Shown: piece after piece, positions 1 through 34,131 of the stretch | How the letters are laid out: every line of letters starts with the position of its first letter | Numbering within the stretch: the stretch's first letter is position 1 | From: Aquificota bacterium | Lineage (GTDB): Bacteria; Thermosulfidibacterota; Thermosulfidibacteria; Thermosulfidibacterales; B14-G1 | NCBI GenBank assembly: GCA_015486015.1 | Contig: WFSL01000024.1 | Location: 1 to 41,779, forward strand | Direction: 5' to 3' | Length of the DNA: 41,779 nt | Position numbers and translations under genes: made by a program | Notes under the pieces: model-generated | Seen by the model: the letters and a program-made list of their open reading frames with translations, nothing else | Told to the model about the DNA's origin: nothing | Databases searched by the model: none

Positions 1-1878
1 GCCCATGAGGTGGCCAGTCTGCTCAGGGGGGGTGTAAGGCCTGAGGAGATTGGTGTCTTGGTGAGGGATATAGGTGAGTATAGGGCGGTGTTGGAGGAGG
101 CTTTTGATGTATGGGGCATTCCTTATAGGGTGAGTCAACACCCCGCCCTTGCCGAACATCCATTGGTGAACCTTGGGGTAATGCTTAGCCGGACTCGCTT
201 GGAGGACCTACCTGTGAGCAGGCTTGTTTCCTTGACCCTCTCTTCTTTTATACCGCTAGACCCACTCACTAAGAGTGAGGTGCTGAGATTGGTGGAGAGG
301 GTTCAGTATCTTGTGGGGATTGAGAGGTGGAGGGAGAGACTGAAGGGCTTAGGGGAGCTCCCAAGGGCAAGGGGATGGATACTCTCTACCCTAATCCCTG
401 CCTTAGAGGCCATTCCTCTAAGGGGGGAAGGTCGAGAGATCATAAAAGGACTCGACAATGCCTTGAGGTTGTTGGGGGTGGGTGTGGAGGGGGAAGAGGT
501 GCTTTCCCATTTATGGGAGGCCTTGCTCTCCATGGTGAGGGGTAAGGAGCTGGCTGGTGTCTCTCAGTTTACGCTGGAAGAATTCCTCATCAGCGCCTCG
601 GGGGTGTTGAGGGAATCCCACTACTCTCCGCCCCAGTTGAAGGGTGGTGTAACTATTATGGGGCTATTGGACGGGCGTCAGTCTGTCTTTCCCCATCTCT
701 TCTTTATGGGGCTTAGCCAAGAGGCCTTTCCATCCCAGGTCTATTCCGATCCCCTTTTGAGGGATGCGGACAGGGAGAGGATCAACAGGGCCTATGGTAG
801 GGTGATGCTCCCTCTTCAAGGTGAGCGGAGCTTATCCGAAGACCGGCTCCTATTCTATATAGGTTTCACCAGGGCAAGGGAGACCCTTCATTTGTCTTAC
901 AGTTGCAGGGATGACCAAGGGAGGCCCCTTCTGCCTTCCCCTTATCTACAAGAGCTTCTAAGGGGACTCACCCTAACCCCTGTTCAGGGCTCCCCTCCTC
1001 TACCAATGCCATTGGGTCCTGGCACCCATTTCGAGGCATCACCCGTGAGTGATGTCCCGTTGCCTCAAGCATTTACACCTACTCAATTGGAGACCTATGC
1101 CCACTGCCCCTGCGCCTTCTTCTTTCGGTATGTGTTGAAGGTGGAGCCCTTCCAAGTGCCCATGGAGGAGGCGCTGGCCACTCGCATTGGTGATCTGTAT
1201 CACGAGGTGCTCCAGCGGTATGGAGAGGCGAGGAGGCGTGGGGAAGGAGGGGGATTGAGGGAAAATCTGAGTCTTTTGGAAGGGTTGGCACGGGAGATCT
1301 TTCTCGAGTACCTGGAAGAGGGGAAAGTGGGTCATCAGGAGCTATTTAGGGCGGAGAGTGAACGGCACTTGGAGAATCTGAGGAATTTTGTACGCTGGGA
1401 GACAGAGCAAGAGGTTTCTCCTCCTTTAGCGGTGGAGAAACCATTGGAAGGGGAATTTGGGGGTCTTCATCTGAGGGGGAAACTGGACAGGGTCCAGATG
1501 ATGGATGGGGAGACGGGTATATGGGACTATAAGGTAAGCCAGGGGTACGATTACAGGGAGAGGGAAAGGAAAGGGCTCCTGTTTCAACCCCATATTTATG
1601 CCTATCTGTGGAGGCAAAAGGGTGGCTCCTGCTCCCAGTTCTGGTACCTCTTCCTTCCCCGCATTTTAGATCGTGGAGGGGGCATTTATAGGGCAAACGT
1701 TTCGGATGAGGCGATAAAGGGGCAGCTGAAGCGGGCGATTGAGCTGGTGAAGCACATGAAAGCTGGGTGTTTCTCTCCTTATTCCAAGGACATAGGGTTA
1801 GAGGAGGCAGGGGGAAAATGCCGTCACTGTCTGTATCGCCTCATTTGTAGGAGGGAGGATAAGGTTCTTGGGTGGTGA
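1..1878 (+). CDS. AddB-like helicase/nuclease subunit, 5' end cut off
   Basis: The open frame runs in from the window edge, so the N-terminus is missing; about 625 codons remain. It looks like the C-terminal half of an AddB-type subunit of a two-component double-strand-break repair helicase-nuclease. The middle holds a degenerate superfamily 1 helicase C-terminal region, with FYIGFTRARETLHL near residue 290. A PD-(D/E)XK nuclease follows, with GKLDR near 494 and WDYK near 507. Cysteines in YAHCPC near 365 and a C-x2-C-x5-C set near 607-616 match the split [4Fe-4S] cluster ligands known around AddB nuclease domains. It overlaps the next gene by 11 bases, as expected for an addBA pair. The family is clear; the AddB label rather than a generic PD-(D/E)XK nuclease is inferred from the cysteines and the partner gene. 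Confidence 0.85.
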   Translation, partial: AHEVASLLRGGVRPEEIGVLVRDIGEYRAVLEEAFDVWGIPYRVSQHPALAEHPLVNLGVMLSRTRLEDLPVSRLVSLTLSSFIPLDPLTKSEVLRLVERVQYLVGIERWRERLKGLGELPRARGWILSTLIPALEAIPLRGEGREIIKGLDNALRLLGVGVEGEEVLSHLWEALLSMVRGKELAGVSQFTLEEFLISASGVLRESHYSPPQLKGGVTIMGLLDGRQSVFPHLFFMGLSQEAFPSQVYSDPLLRDADRERINRAYGRVMLPLQGERSLSEDRLLFYIGFTRARETLHLSYSCRDDQGRPLLPSPYLQELLRGLTLTPVQGSPPLPMPLGPGTHFEASPVSDVPLPQAFTPTQLETYAHCPCAFFFRYVLKVEPFQVPMEEALATRIGDLYHEVLQRYGEARRRGEGGGLRENLSLLEGLAREIFLEYLEEGKVGHQELFRAESERHLENLRNFVRWETEQEVSPPLAVEKPLEGEFGGLHLRGKLDRVQMMDGETGIWDYKVSQGYDYRERERKGLLFQPHIYAYLWRQKGGSCSQFWYLFLPRILDRGGGIYRANVSDEAIKGQLKRAIELVKHMKAGCFSPYSKDIGLEEAGGKCRHCLYRLICRREDKVLGW

Positions 1879-4800
1879 TGAAGTTGTCTTCCTCAATTAC
1901 CTGAAAGAGTCAGGATTCACCATTCAGCAAAGGGAAGCTATCCTTTCTTCCGAAAACCTCATTGTGGAGGCAGGGGCAGGCACTGGCAAGACAAAGACTT
2001 TGGTAGCCCGTTACCTGCGTCATATCTTGGTGGATGGGCTTTCACCCCGAGAGGTGGTAGCCCTTACCTTCACAGAGAAGGCAGCCCAGGAGATGCGGGA
2101 AAGGGTGCAGGATCAGCTTCTCTGCTTTCGGGGCACCCGGCTATGGACGAGGGCCTCTGAGGCCCTCGAGATGATGGCTCAGGCTCCTATCAAGACCTTC
2201 CATGGATTTTCGTCATTTCTGCTTAGAGAATATCCCGTTGAAACGGGCGTTGATCCTTTGTTTTCTCTGATTGACGAGATGGGTGAGGCTATCCTCTTGG
2301 AGGAGGCTATAAATGGCTACCTTTCTAATCATCTTGGTGGGAAGGAGGTCACCACCCTGCTGGAGTATTTGAGCGTATTCCAGCTTAAGAGGGCTTTGAG
2401 GATCTTTTTTGACTCTGTGCTCCCGGTCCTGGACGAGGAGGCCTTAGAAGGTGATGCATTAATAGACCTCAGCGGTTCCTCTATCCCTCTCACCGAGGTG
2501 ATAGGGGAGATAAGGAAGGCGGTGGAAATGATTCCAGATGTGAGGGATCACCTCTCTCAAGGGCACTGTCTTAGTGTGTTCCCAAAGCTTCTATCCTCCT
2601 TAGAGACCTTGGACTATCTTCTAAGCCTCTTCGATGATGGGGAGGAGACCCTGAAGGTGCTTGTAAGGATGGCTAAGGAACTGGGTCGGTTCCCCAAGTG
2701 GGGCAGATGCAGGTATTTGGAAGAGCTGAAACGTTTGGGGGCACTCTCTCATCACTTGTGTCTTTGGCTGGAAAAGACCGTGGGGGAAGGATTTTATGGC
2801 TCTTTTTTAGCTGTTGTGAGGGGGGTACGGCGGGAGATAGAGGGATTGAAGGTAAGAGAAGGGGTACTTACCTTCTCAGATCTTCAGCAAAGGATGGTGG
2901 GGGCCTTAAGGAGAGACGGGACGCTGAGGGAAGAGATCAAGCGCCGGTTTCGTCGTGTGTTGGTGGATGAGTACCAAGACACCAACGAGCTTCAGAGGGA
3001 GATTGTTACCTATCTGTGTGAAGAAAAGGGGAGGTTTGCCAGGGATTATCGCCAGGCCTCGCTGGAGGAGGGAAAGCTCTTTATCGTGGGGGACCCCAAA
3101 CAGTCCATTTACGCCTTCAGGGGGGCAGATGTAGGGGTATACGCCAGGACCAAAAGGCAATTGGGAGAAGGAAGGGGCATGTATCTCACCCACTGTTTTC
3201 GCAGTGGAGAGGGGCTGGTCTCAAAGGCCAATGCTTTATTCAAGAGGATCTTCGAGGATGCATCCCCCCTGCTTGGTCCAGACTACATTGTTCCTTTTAC
3301 CCCCTTAAAGTCGGAGGCGCCTGGGGGGGAGCTGTGGGCGTGGTGGGTGGATGCAGGAATGGTCGTGGAGGAGGCATTGGCACGTATAGTGCTTAAACAA
3401 CGTGAGAAGGGATATAGGTGGGGCGACATAGGGGTGTTGGTGAGAAGGAACGCTACGGTGGTGCGCCTCTATCATAAATTTTTATCTCTTGGGATCCCTG
3501 TAGTCTCTTCCACTTCGGGAGGGCTCCTGGAGAGGAGGGAAATTCAGGATATCCTCCTCTATCTCAAGGCGCTGGATAATCCCGCCGATGACTACTCCAT
3601 TTTGGGTCTCCTCATTGCCCCATTTGTGGGTTTAGACCAGGGTACGGTCCTTGCCCTCTCCTCGAGCAGAGGGGAAGGCCAGGGGCTCTATGAGGCCTGG
3701 AGGAAGGCAGTGGAGGATGGGGCGTTTCCTGAGGAGAAGGTAAGGGCCCTTTCTCGGGCCTTTGAGGCCTTTGAGAGATTGAGGGTCCGCAAGGACCGGC
3801 TAAGCATTAATGGGCTTATTCAGGCAGTGGTGAGGGAGACGGGCTATGGATACTGGCTCTCCCAGCAACCTTATGGGGAGCAGGCCTTGGCCAATATTGA
3901 CGCCCTCTCCCGGCTGGCCTGGAGGTTTCAGAAAGGGCGGCTTTTTACCCTATCAGAATTTCTCATTTCTGTGGAGAATAGGGGGCTGCCCTCTAAGGAG
4001 GCCCCGGAGGAGGTAGAGGTGCAGGACGCCGTATCTATTCTCACTGTTCATGCTGCGAAGGGGTTGGAGTTTCCCGTGGTGATTTTGGGGGAAAGCTGGC
4101 TTTACCCACGGAAGGATCTGGCTCCTGTGCTCTATGATCACCAAGGGGGCTTCAGCCTTAAGATACCTATCCTGGATTTTAACCCTAAGTACCGATGTGT
4201 GCAGGCCCTAAAGGAGAATAAAAAGAGGGAAGAGGAGAAGAGGCTCCTCTACGTGGCATTTACCAGGGCTAAGCAAGAGCTTCACATACTCTTCAGGGAG
4301 GAGGGCAAAGGGGGAAGCTGGCAAGCCTGGCTTCTCAATGCTGGCATAGAAGGCATGGCGAGGAAAGGCTCGTGGGACCAGACACCTCAACTTGAGCCAA
4401 AGAAGGTGGAGCCAAGGGAGGTGGGACATTCAATTCCATCCCCTTTGGTGGGAGTTGCCCAGTCGGCATTGAGGGTGGAGGTGGTTAGGTTGCTTCCTGG
4501 AGAGATCTGCGATGGTAATCCCATCCTTGGATCCTTCTTCCACAAGGCCATGAAGGAGATAGGTCATCCTGGCGAGGCCTCTCGCTGGTATGACTTGCAC
4601 TCTGCCCTTCTGGCTGTCAGGGGGGTATCCCTCACCAAGAGAAGGTTTACCGCCAGGATGAGGGCCTACTTTAAAGGTGCCTTTTATAGGGATGTGATAG
4701 CACCAGCTGAAAAGGTTCTTAGGGAAGTGCCTTTGGAAGCCCCCTTTGGAAGACTGCTGGTGACGGGTAGGCCGGATGTGGTGGTGATCGGCCAAGATGG

Positions 4801-5062
4801 GGAGGTGATGGTGGGGGAGTACAAGTTGGAGGGGAGCCCCCTCCATAGGGAGAGGTTTGTGGATCAGTTGGCACTCTATTCATGGCTTGTGGAACAGTAC
4901 ATGGGTAAGTGGCCCCATGCTGCCTTTTTGTATTACATCCTTCCTGGCAAGTGGGAAAGGCTATCCGGAGAGGGACTCAGGGAAAGGGCCCTTGCCCTTT
5001 TGAATCAGGGGATTATAAATCTTACCCAAGAAGGGGATGACTCGGTGGGAGGAGAGGGATAA
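1868..5062 (+). CDS. AddA-like UvrD/Rep helicase-nuclease
   Basis: A 1064-residue superfamily 1A helicase with a C-terminal nuclease, likely the motor subunit that resects double-strand breaks with its upstream partner. Visible motifs in order: Walker A AGAGTGKT (residues 35-42) after the Q-motif glutamines, TFTEKAAQEMRERV (motif Ia), VDEYQDTNE (Walker B, near 366), VGDPKQSIYAFRGAD (motif III), HCFRSGEGL (motif IV), TVHAAKGLEFPVV (motif V) and YVAFTRAKQELHI (motif VI). HKAMKEIG near 893 fits the histidine of the HxxAM nuclease motif. GRPDVV near 968 and GEYKL near 983 are the PD-(D/E)XK core. The start is TTG at 1868, preceded by a purine-rich GGAGGATAAGG stretch; I see no better in-frame start. 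AddA or RecB are both possible names; the two-gene layout favours AddA. Confidence 0.88.
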   Translation: MGGDEVVFLNYLKESGFTIQQREAILSSENLIVEAGAGTGKTKTLVARYLRHILVDGLSPREVVALTFTEKAAQEMRERVQDQLLCFRGTRLWTRASEALEMMAQAPIKTFHGFSSFLLREYPVETGVDPLFSLIDEMGEAILLEEAINGYLSNHLGGKEVTTLLEYLSVFQLKRALRIFFDSVLPVLDEEALEGDALIDLSGSSIPLTEVIGEIRKAVEMIPDVRDHLSQGHCLSVFPKLLSSLETLDYLLSLFDDGEETLKVLVRMAKELGRFPKWGRCRYLEELKRLGALSHHLCLWLEKTVGEGFYGSFLAVVRGVRREIEGLKVREGVLTFSDLQQRMVGALRRDGTLREEIKRRFRRVLVDEYQDTNELQREIVTYLCEEKGRFARDYRQASLEEGKLFIVGDPKQSIYAFRGADVGVYARTKRQLGEGRGMYLTHCFRSGEGLVSKANALFKRIFEDASPLLGPDYIVPFTPLKSEAPGGELWAWWVDAGMVVEEALARIVLKQREKGYRWGDIGVLVRRNATVVRLYHKFLSLGIPVVSSTSGGLLERREIQDILLYLKALDNPADDYSILGLLIAPFVGLDQGTVLALSSSRGEGQGLYEAWRKAVEDGAFPEEKVRALSRAFEAFERLRVRKDRLSINGLIQAVVRETGYGYWLSQQPYGEQALANIDALSRLAWRFQKGRLFTLSEFLISVENRGLPSKEAPEEVEVQDAVSILTVHAAKGLEFPVVILGESWLYPRKDLAPVLYDHQGGFSLKIPILDFNPKYRCVQALKENKKREEEKRLLYVAFTRAKQELHILFREEGKGGSWQAWLLNAGIEGMARKGSWDQTPQLEPKKVEPREVGHSIPSPLVGVAQSALRVEVVRLLPGEICDGNPILGSFFHKAMKEIGHPGEASRWYDLHSALLAVRGVSLTKRRFTARMRAYFKGAFYRDVIAPAEKVLREVPLEAPFGRLLVTGRPDVVVIGQDGEVMVGEYKLEGSPLHRERFVDQLALYSWLVEQYMGKWPHAAFLYYILPGKWERLSGEGLRERALALLNQGIINLTQEGDDSVGGEG

Positions 5063-29225: not shown

Positions 29226-30499
29226 TATTGGGGGTTCGGCAAATTAAGGGTGAGGCGATTCCTACAAGTTGGACAACGCGGGAGGGGATAACAGTATGGC
29301 TAATCTCCAGGCATTCCCTCCCCTTTGTGGTGTTGAAGGTCTTGGTGAGGGGCGGCTCGGTATACGATCCGGAGGAGAAAGCGGGTGTGGCCTATCTCCT
29401 GTCGCAGCTTCTTCCAGAGGGGGCAGGAGGGATGACGGGGCTTCAGATATCCCAAGCCTTAGATTATATGGGCTCCGATCTGGAGACCAGTTGCTGTAAG
29501 GATTACGCCGCCGCTACCTTGACCACCTTAAAGGAGCACTTAGAAGAGGGGTTTAAGATCCTCTCATGGATACTCACCAAGCCATCCCTTTCTAAGGGGG
29601 AATTTGAGAGGGTGAAGAGGGAGGTGATGGGTGAGCTTCTCAAAGAAGAGGAGGACCCTGGGCTTGTGGCCTCTAAGGCCTTTAATGAAGCCCTATTCAG
29701 AGGGCATCCCTATCACAGGCCAGAAAAGGGGTATATGAAGACAGTTGAATCCATCTCTCTAATGGATGTGAAGGCATTCTATAAGCGTTTCTACCGACCC
29801 AACTTCACCATCTTCTCTGTGGCAGGGGATATAACCAAAGAGGAACTCCAGGGGCTCATGGATAGGTACCTCAAAGGGTGGGAGGCCTCAAGGCAGTCCC
29901 TTCCCCCAGTGGCAGATCCATTGCCATTGGAAGGGCCTAAAACGCAGGTGCTGGAGAAGGTGGTGACCCAGGCCAACATCATCCTGGGCCACTTAGGCGT
30001 GAAGAGAAGTAATCCTGATTTTGCAAAGGTGTATGTAATGAATCAAATAGTAGGTGGAGGAGGACTCACTTCTCGCCTCTTTCGGAGGATCCGTGAGGAG
30101 AGGGGGTTCTCTTACAGTGTCTACTCTTATTTCCAGTCTTCCTATTGGGGTGGGGCGTTCCGCGTGGTTTTGCAGACCAAGAACGAGAGGGCCCAAGAGG
30201 CCATAGGCGAGGTAAGAAAGGTGTTGATGGATTATAAGGACGAGGGCCCCTCCGAGGCAGAATTGGAGGATGCCAAGAGATATTTGACTGGTAGCTTTCC
30301 ACTGAGGATAGAGACAAATCGGGAGATCGCCGACTACATGGCCTTTGCTGCCTTTCATGGTTTGGGGACCGACTACTTTGAGGCGTTTCCGGAGGAGATA
30401 GAAGGGGTCACCTTGGAGGATGTAAAGATGGCAGCCAGGAGGTATCTTCATCCTGATAGGTTGTTGGTTGTGGTGGTCAAAGCACCTTCCGCCCCTTGA
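29222..30499 (+). CDS. M16-family peptidase-like partner, zinc site lost
   Basis: A 425-residue M16 protein in which the HxxEH zinc motif is not preserved: the matching segment reads GVAYLLSQLLPEGAGG near residue 60. It keeps the substrate-binding arginine and tyrosine in GGGLTSRLFRRIREERGFSY near 280-300. That split, with HxxEH in one protein and the R/Y pair in the other, is known for bacterial M16B heterodimers and MPP alpha/beta. It begins in an ATGA overlap with the catalytic partner. Its 3' end overlaps the convergent amidohydrolase gene by 23 bases. I read it as a non-catalytic subunit. Confidence 0.88.
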   Translation: MILGVRQIKGEAIPTSWTTREGITVWLISRHSLPFVVLKVLVRGGSVYDPEEKAGVAYLLSQLLPEGAGGMTGLQISQALDYMGSDLETSCCKDYAAATLTTLKEHLEEGFKILSWILTKPSLSKGEFERVKREVMGELLKEEEDPGLVASKAFNEALFRGHPYHRPEKGYMKTVESISLMDVKAFYKRFYRPNFTIFSVAGDITKEELQGLMDRYLKGWEASRQSLPPVADPLPLEGPKTQVLEKVVTQANIILGHLGVKRSNPDFAKVYVMNQIVGGGGLTSRLFRRIREERGFSYSVYSYFQSSYWGGAFRVVLQTKNERAQEAIGEVRKVLMDYKDEGPSEAELEDAKRYLTGSFPLRIETNREIADYMAFAAFHGLGTDYFEAFPEEIEGVTLEDVKMAARRYLHPDRLLVVVVKAPSAP

Positions 30500-31619
30500 T
30501 GTACACGCTTTTCAAGTGGGTATCCCCTTGAAGGAGCACAAACCCAGCCAGCTCCTCTGGGGATAAGGGGGCGGGCATTTCTATCACCAAGAATGAGGCC
30601 TCTTTTCCTATTTCAATTGAGGATAGCTCCCTTATCCTGAGTATGGAACCTCCCCCTCCAGTGGCCATGCTGAGGATCTTTTGGGGAGGCAGACTCCACC
30701 CTTGGGCCTTGGCATAAAACCAGAGGGTTCTCATCTCTTCCCAGAGATTCAGGTTTGGGGAGCTTCCCAGCCCATCTGTTCCCAATGCTACGGATATGTG
30801 GGCCTCTACAAGGAGCGGGAGGGGGGCTATCTCACCGGATAAGTAAAGGTTACTCCTGGGGCACACCACCACTGAGGCACCCCTCTTCTCCAAGATTTCT
30901 GCGTCCCTCTGAGTCATAAAGACGGCATGTATAGCTATGGTATTTGAATCCAGGCAACCTATCTCTTCCATGTATTGGATAGGGGTGCTTGCCTTGGGGC
31001 GGTGGAAGGACCTCCTCCCCGCTAATGGAAGGACCTCCTCTTCTATAGCATTGGGTTTCCCTTGGACAAAAGCAGTCTCCTCATAGGATTCAGAGAGATG
31101 AATGGCTTTAAGCTCCTTGGGTCTTTCCCTCCATATCCTTCGGAGGAGGGCTGGCGAGGTGGAGTAGGGGGCATGTGGGGATAATGGTAGGCCCTTGGGG
31201 GGGAGCGGGGCGTCTTCATCACCCAGGACCTCCAGGAAGGGGACTACGGTGTTGGCTATGTATGAGGTTTTTCCTTTCTCCCATGGGTATGGAACTATGT
31301 TCCCCCACGCCACTGTGCCCGTCTTTACCATGGCCTCCTCCTGGGGCAGGGAGGAGCTGGGGCGATGCTGTCTCCTGAGTTTAATAACTTTTTTGATCCA
31401 CGGAATGAAGGAAGGAGGGGAGATCAGGTGAGAAAAGTCGGCATGGACGTGGGCGTTTATGAGGCCAGGGACTATGATTACCGGGGGAGGGTGGTGACAA
31501 GGTTCCAGAGACACAATCTCTTCCCCCTCCCATACGAGGGTGACACCCTCTCGGGGGGGTGAATTCCACTGGCTTATCAGCCATTTACAGGCCACGCTTT
31601 TCCCATTGAAATGGGCCAT
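30477..31619 (-). CDS. Amidohydrolase, probable aminofutalosine deaminase (MqnX-like)
   Basis: A 380-residue metal-dependent amidohydrolase of the TrzN/chlorohydrolase/MqnX class. The metal-binding HxH is in PGLINAHVHADFSHL near 50, further histidines in LPLSPHAPYSTSP near 145 and AIHLSESYEET near 173, and a conserved aspartate in SVALGTDGLGSSPN near 281. VVVCPRSNLYLSGE near 255 is the usual substrate loop. MqnX deaminates aminodeoxyfutalosine to futalosine, the substrate of MqnB, which is also in this window; that makes MqnX the best guess, but an adenosine-type or guanine deaminase is possible. The ATG at 31619, with GAGGGTG upstream, matches the family N-terminus better than the longer open frame. 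It is divergent from clpC. Confidence 0.8.
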   Translation of the reverse strand: MAHFNGKSVACKWLISQWNSPPREGVTLVWEGEEIVSLEPCHHPPPVIIVPGLINAHVHADFSHLISPPSFIPWIKKVIKLRRQHRPSSSLPQEEAMVKTGTVAWGNIVPYPWEKGKTSYIANTVVPFLEVLGDEDAPLPPKGLPLSPHAPYSTSPALLRRIWRERPKELKAIHLSESYEETAFVQGKPNAIEEEVLPLAGRRSFHRPKASTPIQYMEEIGCLDSNTIAIHAVFMTQRDAEILEKRGASVVVCPRSNLYLSGEIAPLPLLVEAHISVALGTDGLGSSPNLNLWEEMRTLWFYAKAQGWSLPPQKILSMATGGGGSILRIRELSSIEIGKEASFLVIEMPAPLSPEELAGFVLLQGDTHLKSVYIKGRKVL

Positions 31620-31638: not shown

Positions 31639-31667
31639 TTGACAAGGTTCAGGCCTGGATGTAAGTT
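31639..31667 (+). promoter_or_regulatory. Candidate clpC promoter
   Basis: TTGACA (31639-31644) and TAAGTT (31662-31667) lie 17 bases apart, 29 bases ahead of the clpC start. The -35 box is perfect; the -10 box is weak and sits inside a palindrome, consistent with a repressed or stress-controlled promoter. Confidence 0.5.
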
Positions 31668-31674
31668 ACATCCA
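31656..31674. promoter_or_regulatory. 19-base perfect palindrome, candidate operator for clpC
   Basis: TGGATGTAAGTTACATCCA is a perfect odd-centred inverted repeat with nine-base arms around G31665. It covers the putative clpC -10 box and lies between two divergent genes, where a repressor dimer would block clpC transcription. It does not look like the long-spaced CIRCE element, and I cannot assign it to a known regulator. Confidence 0.55.
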
Positions 31675-31695
31675 AAAGGGAAACGAGGTAAAGGG

Positions 31696-34131
31696 ATGTT
31701 CGATAGATACACTGAAAGGGCAAGGCGTTCCCTCCTCCTGGCCCGAGGTGAAGCAGAGCGACATCAGCATGATCATCTTACCACAGCTCATATCCTCTTA
31801 GGGCTCATAAAAGAAGGTTCCGGACTGGGGCTCCTTCTGTTGGAGAGATTGGGGGTAAATATAGAACAGCTCAAACAAGAGTTGGAGAGGCGTATCCCTT
31901 ATGGGAGAAGGGGTTTTGTTATGGGAGCTATCCCCTTTGCCCCCGATGCAAAGAAGGTGTTAGAGTACGCCATGGAGGAGGCCAAGTATCTCCATCAAGA
32001 CTACATAGGTACCGAGCATCTGGTGTTGGGTATCCTTCGGGAGAAGACTGGCCTTGGCGGGAAACTCTTGAGGCGCCTTGGGGTTGAGGGGAACGAGGCG
32101 AGGGAGATCCTGAAGGATATGGTGGGTGAGGAGGGGCTGGGTCGAAAGAAGAGGCATAAGAAAACCCCTGCCTTGGACGAGTTTGGTATGGATCTTACTG
32201 AGATGGCCAGGGAGGGGAAGTTGGATCCTGTTATAGGTAGGACCAAGGAGATAGAGCGTGTGATCCAGATACTGGTGAGAAAGACAAAGAACAATCCGGT
32301 CCTCATTGGGGAGCCAGGAGTAGGTAAAACAGCTATTGTTGAGGGATTAGCCCAAAGGATTGTGGAGAAAGAGGTCCCAGAGCCCCTTATGAATAGGCGC
32401 CTCATCTCTTTAGATCTGGGGGCCATTGTGGCAGGTACTAAGTATAGAGGCCAATTTGAGTCCCGGATGAAGGCCATTATAAAGGAGGCATCTGAGGATG
32501 AGGACGTGATGCTTTTTATAGATGAGATTCATACTTTGGTAGGGGCAGGGGCTGCTGAGGGTTCAATAGATGCAGCCAACATGTTGAAGCCTGCCTTGGC
32601 CCGAGGGGATATCCACTGCATAGGGGCCACTACCCTTTCTGAGTACAGGAAATATATAGAAAAGGATGGGGCCTTGGAAAGGAGATTTCAGGTTGTGATG
32701 GTAGAACCTCCTACGGTGGAGGAGACCTTGGAAATCCTTAGGGGACTGCGTTCAAGATATGAGGAGTTCCACCATGTAGAGATCACAGATGAGGCCTTGG
32801 TAGCTGCCGCCCGCTTGGCGGACAGATACATGACGGACAAGTTCCTACCAGACAAGGCTATAGACCTATTAGATGAGGCCTGTTCTATGGTACACATCCG
32901 TTGTTCCCATATCCCCGCCCATATTAGAGAGGTGGAGCTGGAGTTGGACAGGCTGGAACAGAGAAAGCGTCAAGCTATTAACAATCAGGAGTTTGAGAAG
33001 GCTGCTGGTGTAAGGGATGAAGAGCTTCAAGTGCTTCATCGCCTGCGGGATCTAAGGAGGGAGTGGCTCAGGGAGAGGGATAAGGAAAAACCCAAGGTGA
33101 CAGAGACCGATGTGGCACTGGTTATATCCAATGCTACGGGTATACCCCTCAATAGGCTAAGTGCGGAGGAGGAGAAGCGTCTCCTGGATTTGGAATCTGA
33201 ATTGAAGGCTATGGTGGTGGGTCAGGATGAGGCAGTGGAGAGGGTGGCCAAGGCCATAAGAAAGGCAAGGGTAGGGCTGAGGAGTCATACTCGTCCTGTA
33301 GGCGCCTTCTTCTTCTTAGGTCCCACAGGGGTAGGGAAGACCAGGTTGGCAGAGGCCTTGGCAGAGGTGCTCTTCGGAGGAGTGGATGCCCTTCTGCGTT
33401 TCGACATGTCGGAGTATATGGAGAAGTTTAATGTATCCAGGTTAATAGGTGCTCCACCTGGGTACGTGGGCTACGACGAAGGGGGGCAACTCACAGAGGC
33501 GGTGAGGAGGAGGCCTTACTCTGTGATCCTTTTTGATGAGATGGAGAAGGCGCATCCCGAGGTTTTCAACATCCTATTGCAGATCTTTGACTCTGGAAGG
33601 CTAACAGATGCCTTTGGCCGCACGGTGGACTTTAAGAACACCCTCATAATAATGACCTCTAATATTGGTGCCAAGCTCTTTTTCAAAGGGGTCTCCTTTG
33701 GTTTTGGCGAAAGCGAAACAGACTTCCGTAACATTAAGAATAAGGTGCTTTCCCAGTTTAAGAGGCGCTTTGCCCCCGAATTTATCAACAGGCTTGACGA
33801 TGTTATCGTTTTCAATCCCCTCGGTCAGGAGGAGGTGCTCCTTATACTGGATCTGGTGTTGGACGAGCTGCGGGGGAGGTTGGAGGAGAGGGGGATGCGT
33901 TTAAGGGTGACACCAAGGGCCAGAAGATTTCTGGTTTCTCAGGGGTTCGATGCCCAGATGGGTGCCAGGCCTTTGAGGAGGGCAGTGGAAAGGCTTGTGT
34001 CTGAGCCCTTGTCTGAAGAGATACTGCGGGGAGCTTTTTCGGAGGGTGACACCATTGTGGTGGATGTGGTAAAGCAAAAGGTAAGGTTTAAGAAGGGGGG
34101 GAAACGCAGGGCGGAAACAACTGTTTTGTAG
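31696..34131 (+). CDS. clpC: ATP-dependent Clp protease ATPase subunit ClpC
   Basis: An 811-residue AAA+ unfoldase that feeds proteins to ClpP. The N-terminus has two Clp-N repeats, starting [19 protein letters not shown] and [20 protein letters not shown]. The first ATPase module has Walker [10 protein letters not shown] near 205 and Walker B LFIDEIH. A UVR-like middle segment, [15 protein letters not shown] near 430, marks ClpC rather than ClpB, whose long coiled coil is absent. The second module has GPTGVGKT near 541 and [13 protein letters not shown]. The ATG at 31696 follows CGAGGTAAAGGG and gives the family N-terminus. A palindrome over its promoter suggests dedicated control. No mcsA, mcsB or clpP gene is nearby. 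Confidence 0.95.

Follow-up and report, generated by a model that had tools for sequence, protein, structure and literature searches.

A 19-base palindrome over the clpC promoter of a Thermosulfidibacterales bacterium as a candidate bidirectional promoter

In Firmicutes, clpC is controlled by CtsR, a regulator that acts at the clpC promoter and whose box is a direct heptad repeat, and the CIRCE element of the HrcA/CIRCE system has the consensus TTAGCACTC-N9-GAGTGCTAA. A class of bidirectional promoters has also been described, reportedly by Warman, Grainger and colleagues, with a founding paper in 2021. These promoters use one near-symmetric -10 element in both orientations, with start sites 7-25 bp apart and usually separated by 18 bp (PMC10268837, PMC12825309). 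In them, -11A and -7T are reciprocally paired and +1 is a purine, usually A, hence a T at -18 of the other strand, an arrangement that is usual and not obligatory; on the Salmonella chromosome, bidirectional promoters are biased towards gaps between divergent genes (PMC10268837, PMC12825309). We compared these systems with a palindrome in the window analysed here, that is, the whole stretch of 41,779 nucleotides. Judging from the DNA sequence, we favour, at slightly better than even confidence, the reading that the palindrome forms the body of a housekeeping, sigma70-type promoter that works in both directions and is common to clpC and a divergent MqnX-like gene. Bidirectional promoters being an already known class, the clpC element is most likely a member of it.

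The clpC gene (31696..34131, plus strand) encodes a product of 811 aa with Clp_N, AAA, UVR and D2-small domains, as expected of ClpC. The divergent gene (30477..31619, minus strand) encodes an amidohydrolase of 380 aa with the Pfam domain Amidohydro_1, for which the best NCBIfam match was the aminofutalosine deaminase family, at 132 bits where the cut-off is 320; because the score lies below the cut-off, "MqnX-like" denotes resemblance only. A gap of 76 bp, tight for two independent promoters, separates the ATG of clpC at 31696 (+) from that of the MqnX-like gene at 31619 (-). On the plus strand, the -35 hexamer TTGACA (31639..31644) stands exactly 17 bases from the forward -10 hexamer TAAGTT (31662..31667), and the predicted clpC transcription start, an A at 31674 placed from the position of the -10, would give a 22-base leader. 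The clpC ribosome-binding site is GAGG (31685..31688, plus strand). This promoter was not among the matches of a simple consensus scan with a 9-of-12 threshold, a point against the two-way reading. The perfect 19-base palindrome TGGATGTAAGTTACATCCA occupies 31656..31674, belongs to neither strand in particular and has the predicted +1 positions of the reverse and forward transcripts as its two ends, its 9-base arms TGGATGTAA and TTACATCCA (9+1+9) being fully complementary about a central G. The initial annotation was therefore right that a real palindrome covers the clpC -10 with TTGACA 17 bases upstream, and that it lies between divergent clpC and MqnX-like genes.

Palindromes with arms of at least 9 bases and a gap of at most 1 occurred 18 times in 40 dinucleotide shuffles of the window, or about 0.45 per window, and four of this size (gap 0-1) were present in 181,779 bases of the same contig that contain the window. 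As a bare palindrome, the stretch 31656-31674 is not rare; its placement over the clpC promoter is unusual. A longer perfect palindrome, CGAGGGCCTCTGAGGCCCTCG, was seen at 2148-2168 of the window, within an ORF (1868-5062). To place the clpC site among promoters of similar build, we collected the 30 TTGACA-N17-TANNNT sites of its own genome, compared to 5 for the reversed-pattern control. The clpC site was symmetric about position -9 in 8/8 non-trivial pairs, while the other 29 sites reached at most 4/8, with a mean of 2.3 versus 2.0 expected at equal base frequencies. The A at -6, which the reverse hexamer needs, occurred in only 3 of these 29 promoters. These comparisons bear on the reading, which we consider unlikely, that clpC has a common one-way promoter with a -10 region that is symmetric by accident in this species, with the MqnX-like gene having its own promoter or no dedicated one. 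The strong -35 on the clpC side only, the two symmetry pairs that TAAGTT yields for free and the expected frequency of palindromes of such length all fit that reading, but the 8/8 non-trivial pairs at clpC speak against it.

The conservation of the site was followed in nine genomes of the order (own genome and G001-G008), five of which, the own genome and G001-G004, form the family. The DNA upstream of clpC was readable in 8/9; G008 was excluded since only the C-terminal part of its clpC is present, at a contig end. TTGACA is found upstream of clpC in 8/8 readable genomes, and the forward -10 reads TAAGTT in 6/8, TAAAGT in G007 and TATAAA, with 16-base spacing, in G005. Within the family, apart from scattered columns between them, the invariant blocks upstream of clpC are TTTGACAAGG, the 11-base core TGTAAGTTACA (31660..31670, neither strand in particular), CCAAAAGG (31672-31679) and GAGGTAAAGG, the last of these at the ribosome-binding site and identical in 5/5 genomes. 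Only 23 of 214 fourfold-degenerate clpC sites (11%) are invariant in the family, and the pairwise identity of such sites to the own species is 40% for both G001 and G002. Because fourfold sites are invariant at just 11%, the promoter blocks, including the core, are under selection, and we conclude from this comparison that the clpC promoter element is real and selected. The invariance of the core extends to bases beyond the forward hexamer, which argues against an accidentally symmetric one-way promoter.

The perfect symmetry is more restricted. Counted about the palindrome centre, the symmetric pairs number 9/9 in the own species, 6/9 in G001 and 7/9 in G002-G004, and all broken pairs are among the outer four, which are partly broken in 4/4 family relatives; this lack of conservation of the outer pairs is in line with a one-way promoter. 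The own species has T at 31656 and at 31671, where the four relatives have C, and one of these two changes turns the reverse +1 into A and gives the forward -18T. Completion to the perfect 19-mer was probably in part a matter of chance. Outside the family, G006 retains TAAGTTA only (3/9 pairs), G007 has TAAAGTTA, with fewer symmetric pairs than G006, and G005, with its TATAAA, is without such a dyad. In G007 (C27, L182, an f3 relative) we noted by eye a different dyad, TAAGTA-N6-TACTTA, over the clpC -10, in the same place and with other letters. In phylogenetic footprinting, which had been proposed in the initial annotation, the 11-base core was kept at clpC in 5/5 family genomes, and the 19-mer was perfect in 1/5 and not kept outside the family.

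The sequence geometry, the conservation of the core and the conserved divergent arrangement are seen directly, and they suggest how the two-way promoter could work. Whichever way it is oriented, RNA polymerase would bind the same symmetric -10 (TAAGTTA). In the clpC direction, the perfect -35 would assist, with a start at 31674. In the MqnX-like direction, the polymerase would use TAACTT on the other strand, along with the -18T and a -35 that is weak at best, with a predicted start at an A at 31656 (minus strand, placed by symmetry) and a 37-base leader. Selection for two-way use, which we infer as we do the start sites and the reverse activity, would maintain the symmetry. The forward TAAGTT and the reverse TAACTT (31663..31668, minus strand, putative function) share the same base pairs, so that one -10 is readable both ways; this is partly trivial, and the reciprocal -11A/-7T is weak evidence for two-way use, since it is present in any TANNNT hexamer. 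The predicted starts at 31674 and 31656, the last and first bases of the palindrome, are 18 bp apart. In the own species, both strands carry A at the predicted +1 and T at -18. The four family relatives have G at the reverse +1, and the reverse -18T is kept in 5/5 family genomes.

The divergent arrangement itself provides a further comparison. The reverse TAACTT is present in 7/7 loci where an MqnX-like gene diverges from clpC, and these belong to two families, a retention that argues against a one-way promoter. The reverse -10 of G006 is of the extended type, TGATAACTT. In G007, the reverse hexamer is one base off relative to the 17-spaced forward hexamer, which counts against the two-way reading. 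G005, the sole readable locus that is not divergent, has no reverse TAACTT, the gene upstream of its clpC lies on the same strand, and its clpC contig gave no MqnX-like match. The contrast between divergent and non-divergent loci comes from this one genome only, and the genomes are related, which limits the two-way reading. The reverse -35 also counts against a two-way promoter: the -35-like hexamer TTTACC (31687..31692, minus strand) is a weak match (4/6) at 18 bases from the reverse -10, and it overlaps the clpC ribosome-binding site, which could explain why the hexamer is kept in the family. Elsewhere in the own genome, at C24:46614-46627, another divergent gap holds a palindromic AT-rich stretch, TTTTATATATAAAA, a second candidate two-way promoter.

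Like the published bidirectional promoters, the clpC site has a shared -10, reciprocal -11A/-7T and a location between divergent protein genes, and its predicted starts have the 18-bp separation, each strand showing A at +1 and T at -18. It departs from those descriptions in that its starts are predicted only and its symmetry extends to a perfect 19-mer, and in that the family-conserved TG/CA flanks exceed what the class needs. A two-way promoter does not require the TG (31660-31661), the CA (31669-31670) or the G31658-C31672 pair, all of which the family conserves.

These extra bases raise the question of a regulator. Like the HrcA/CIRCE system, the clpC palindrome is an inverted repeat near a chaperone promoter, but it differs from CIRCE in sequence and spacing. 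HrcA was found in 4/9 genomes of the order and CIRCE-like sites in 7/9. In the own genome, the only CIRCE-like site within 3 mismatches is a perfect one, at C24:146589-146615 (L167), before groES-groEL, and there is none at clpC. HrcA was not found in the own assembly (96.75% complete), though four relatives have it; this absence is probably an assembly gap. Unlike in the CtsR system, the palindrome is not a direct heptad repeat, and CtsR (PF05848) was detected in 0/9 genomes of the order, while the positive control, Lactococcus, matched. The initial annotation held that the site matches neither element, and the site is indeed neither CIRCE nor located in a genome with a detected CtsR.

Because the family keeps TG, CA and one G-C pair beyond the needs of a two-way promoter, a local repressor site is conceivable. 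A dimeric repressor would bind G-N-TGTAAGTTACA-N-C over the clpC -10 and start and block clpC, possibly together with the MqnX-like gene, until relieved by stress. We hold this family-specific operator to be rather unlikely, and it may coexist with a bidirectional promoter. In its favour, the pairs T31660/A31670, G31661/C31669 and G31658/C31672, all outside the shared -10, are invariant in 5/5 family genomes while fourfold sites are near saturation, the candidate overlaps the -10 to +1 region, the classic position of a repressor, and, as noted above, CtsR is missing throughout the order and the CIRCE-like site is not at clpC. The dyad is, however, not retained outside the family, the conservation is asymmetric, as it also takes in AAAAGG and the ribosome-binding site, and no regulator gene was noticed beside clpC among the neighbours read from translations. 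The more specific proposal, of a family-specific single-target repressor on G-N-TGTAAGTTACA-N-C within a bidirectional promoter that would jointly switch clpC and the amidohydrolase gene in a lineage lacking CtsR, appears improbable to us.

The search for further copies also speaks against an operator, at least one with a regulon. In the own 1.62 Mb genome, no second copy of the whole 19-mer was found with up to 3 mismatches, and the core with 1 mismatch occurred at 19 sites versus 16 for a reversed-pattern control, which is background. With no second 19-mer copy and the 1-mismatch core at background, the distribution of sites is unlike that of a regulon. The initial annotation had suggested that the site may mark an undescribed stress regulator and had proposed a genome-wide scan for the palindrome; the scan gave no support for a regulator with further targets, and the reading as a new regulator is supported by nothing beyond the conserved core itself. 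Allowing 2 mismatches, the 19-mer matched in 6/60 genomes, including the own, and in 0/8 others of the same order. The exact core TGTAANTTACA occurred at 13 sites in the nine genomes of the order (own 1, G001 3, G002 1, G003 1, G004 1, G005 0, G006 2, G007 0, G008 4), 5 of them at clpC; it is single-copy and at clpC in 4/5 family genomes, and one of the three copies in G001 is at clpC. For the 8 sites away from clpC, the flanks were inspected in all and the surrounding genes in 2 (L124, L126). Neither the exact core nor an MqnX-like match was seen among the ClpC relatives listed (80 loci, all distant, best 52% identity). Open-licence literature searched with the exact strings TGTAANTTACA and TGTAAGTTACA and by terms gave nothing on this element, the results for TGTAAGTTACA being judged by title.

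Three candidate associations were set aside. The second exact core of G001, a genome of the same genus, is TTGTAAGTTACAA; it (L124:1501-1511 = C62:16738-16748, minus strand), lies near a TTGACA and about 45 bases upstream of a cluster of desulfoferrodoxin-like, ferritin-like and flavodiiron-like genes, named from their translations. A link to oxidative stress was dropped, as the core is absent upstream of the desulfoferrodoxin gene in all 6 other genomes that have this gene. A PerR/Fur connection was likewise abandoned: Fur-family genes are present in 6/9 genomes, but nothing connects them to clpC. In G006, a core before a dynamin-like GTPase gene is contained in the last part of the preceding ORF and was dismissed as chance.

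Together, these results suggest that most of the observations at clpC can be accounted for by two-way promoter symmetry. If this is true, the lineage would possess a conserved, near-perfectly symmetric natural two-way promoter, and a striking palindrome over a -10 element need not be a repressor site. The relatives with and without a divergent neighbour would then offer a natural contrast for whether selection maintains promoter symmetry.
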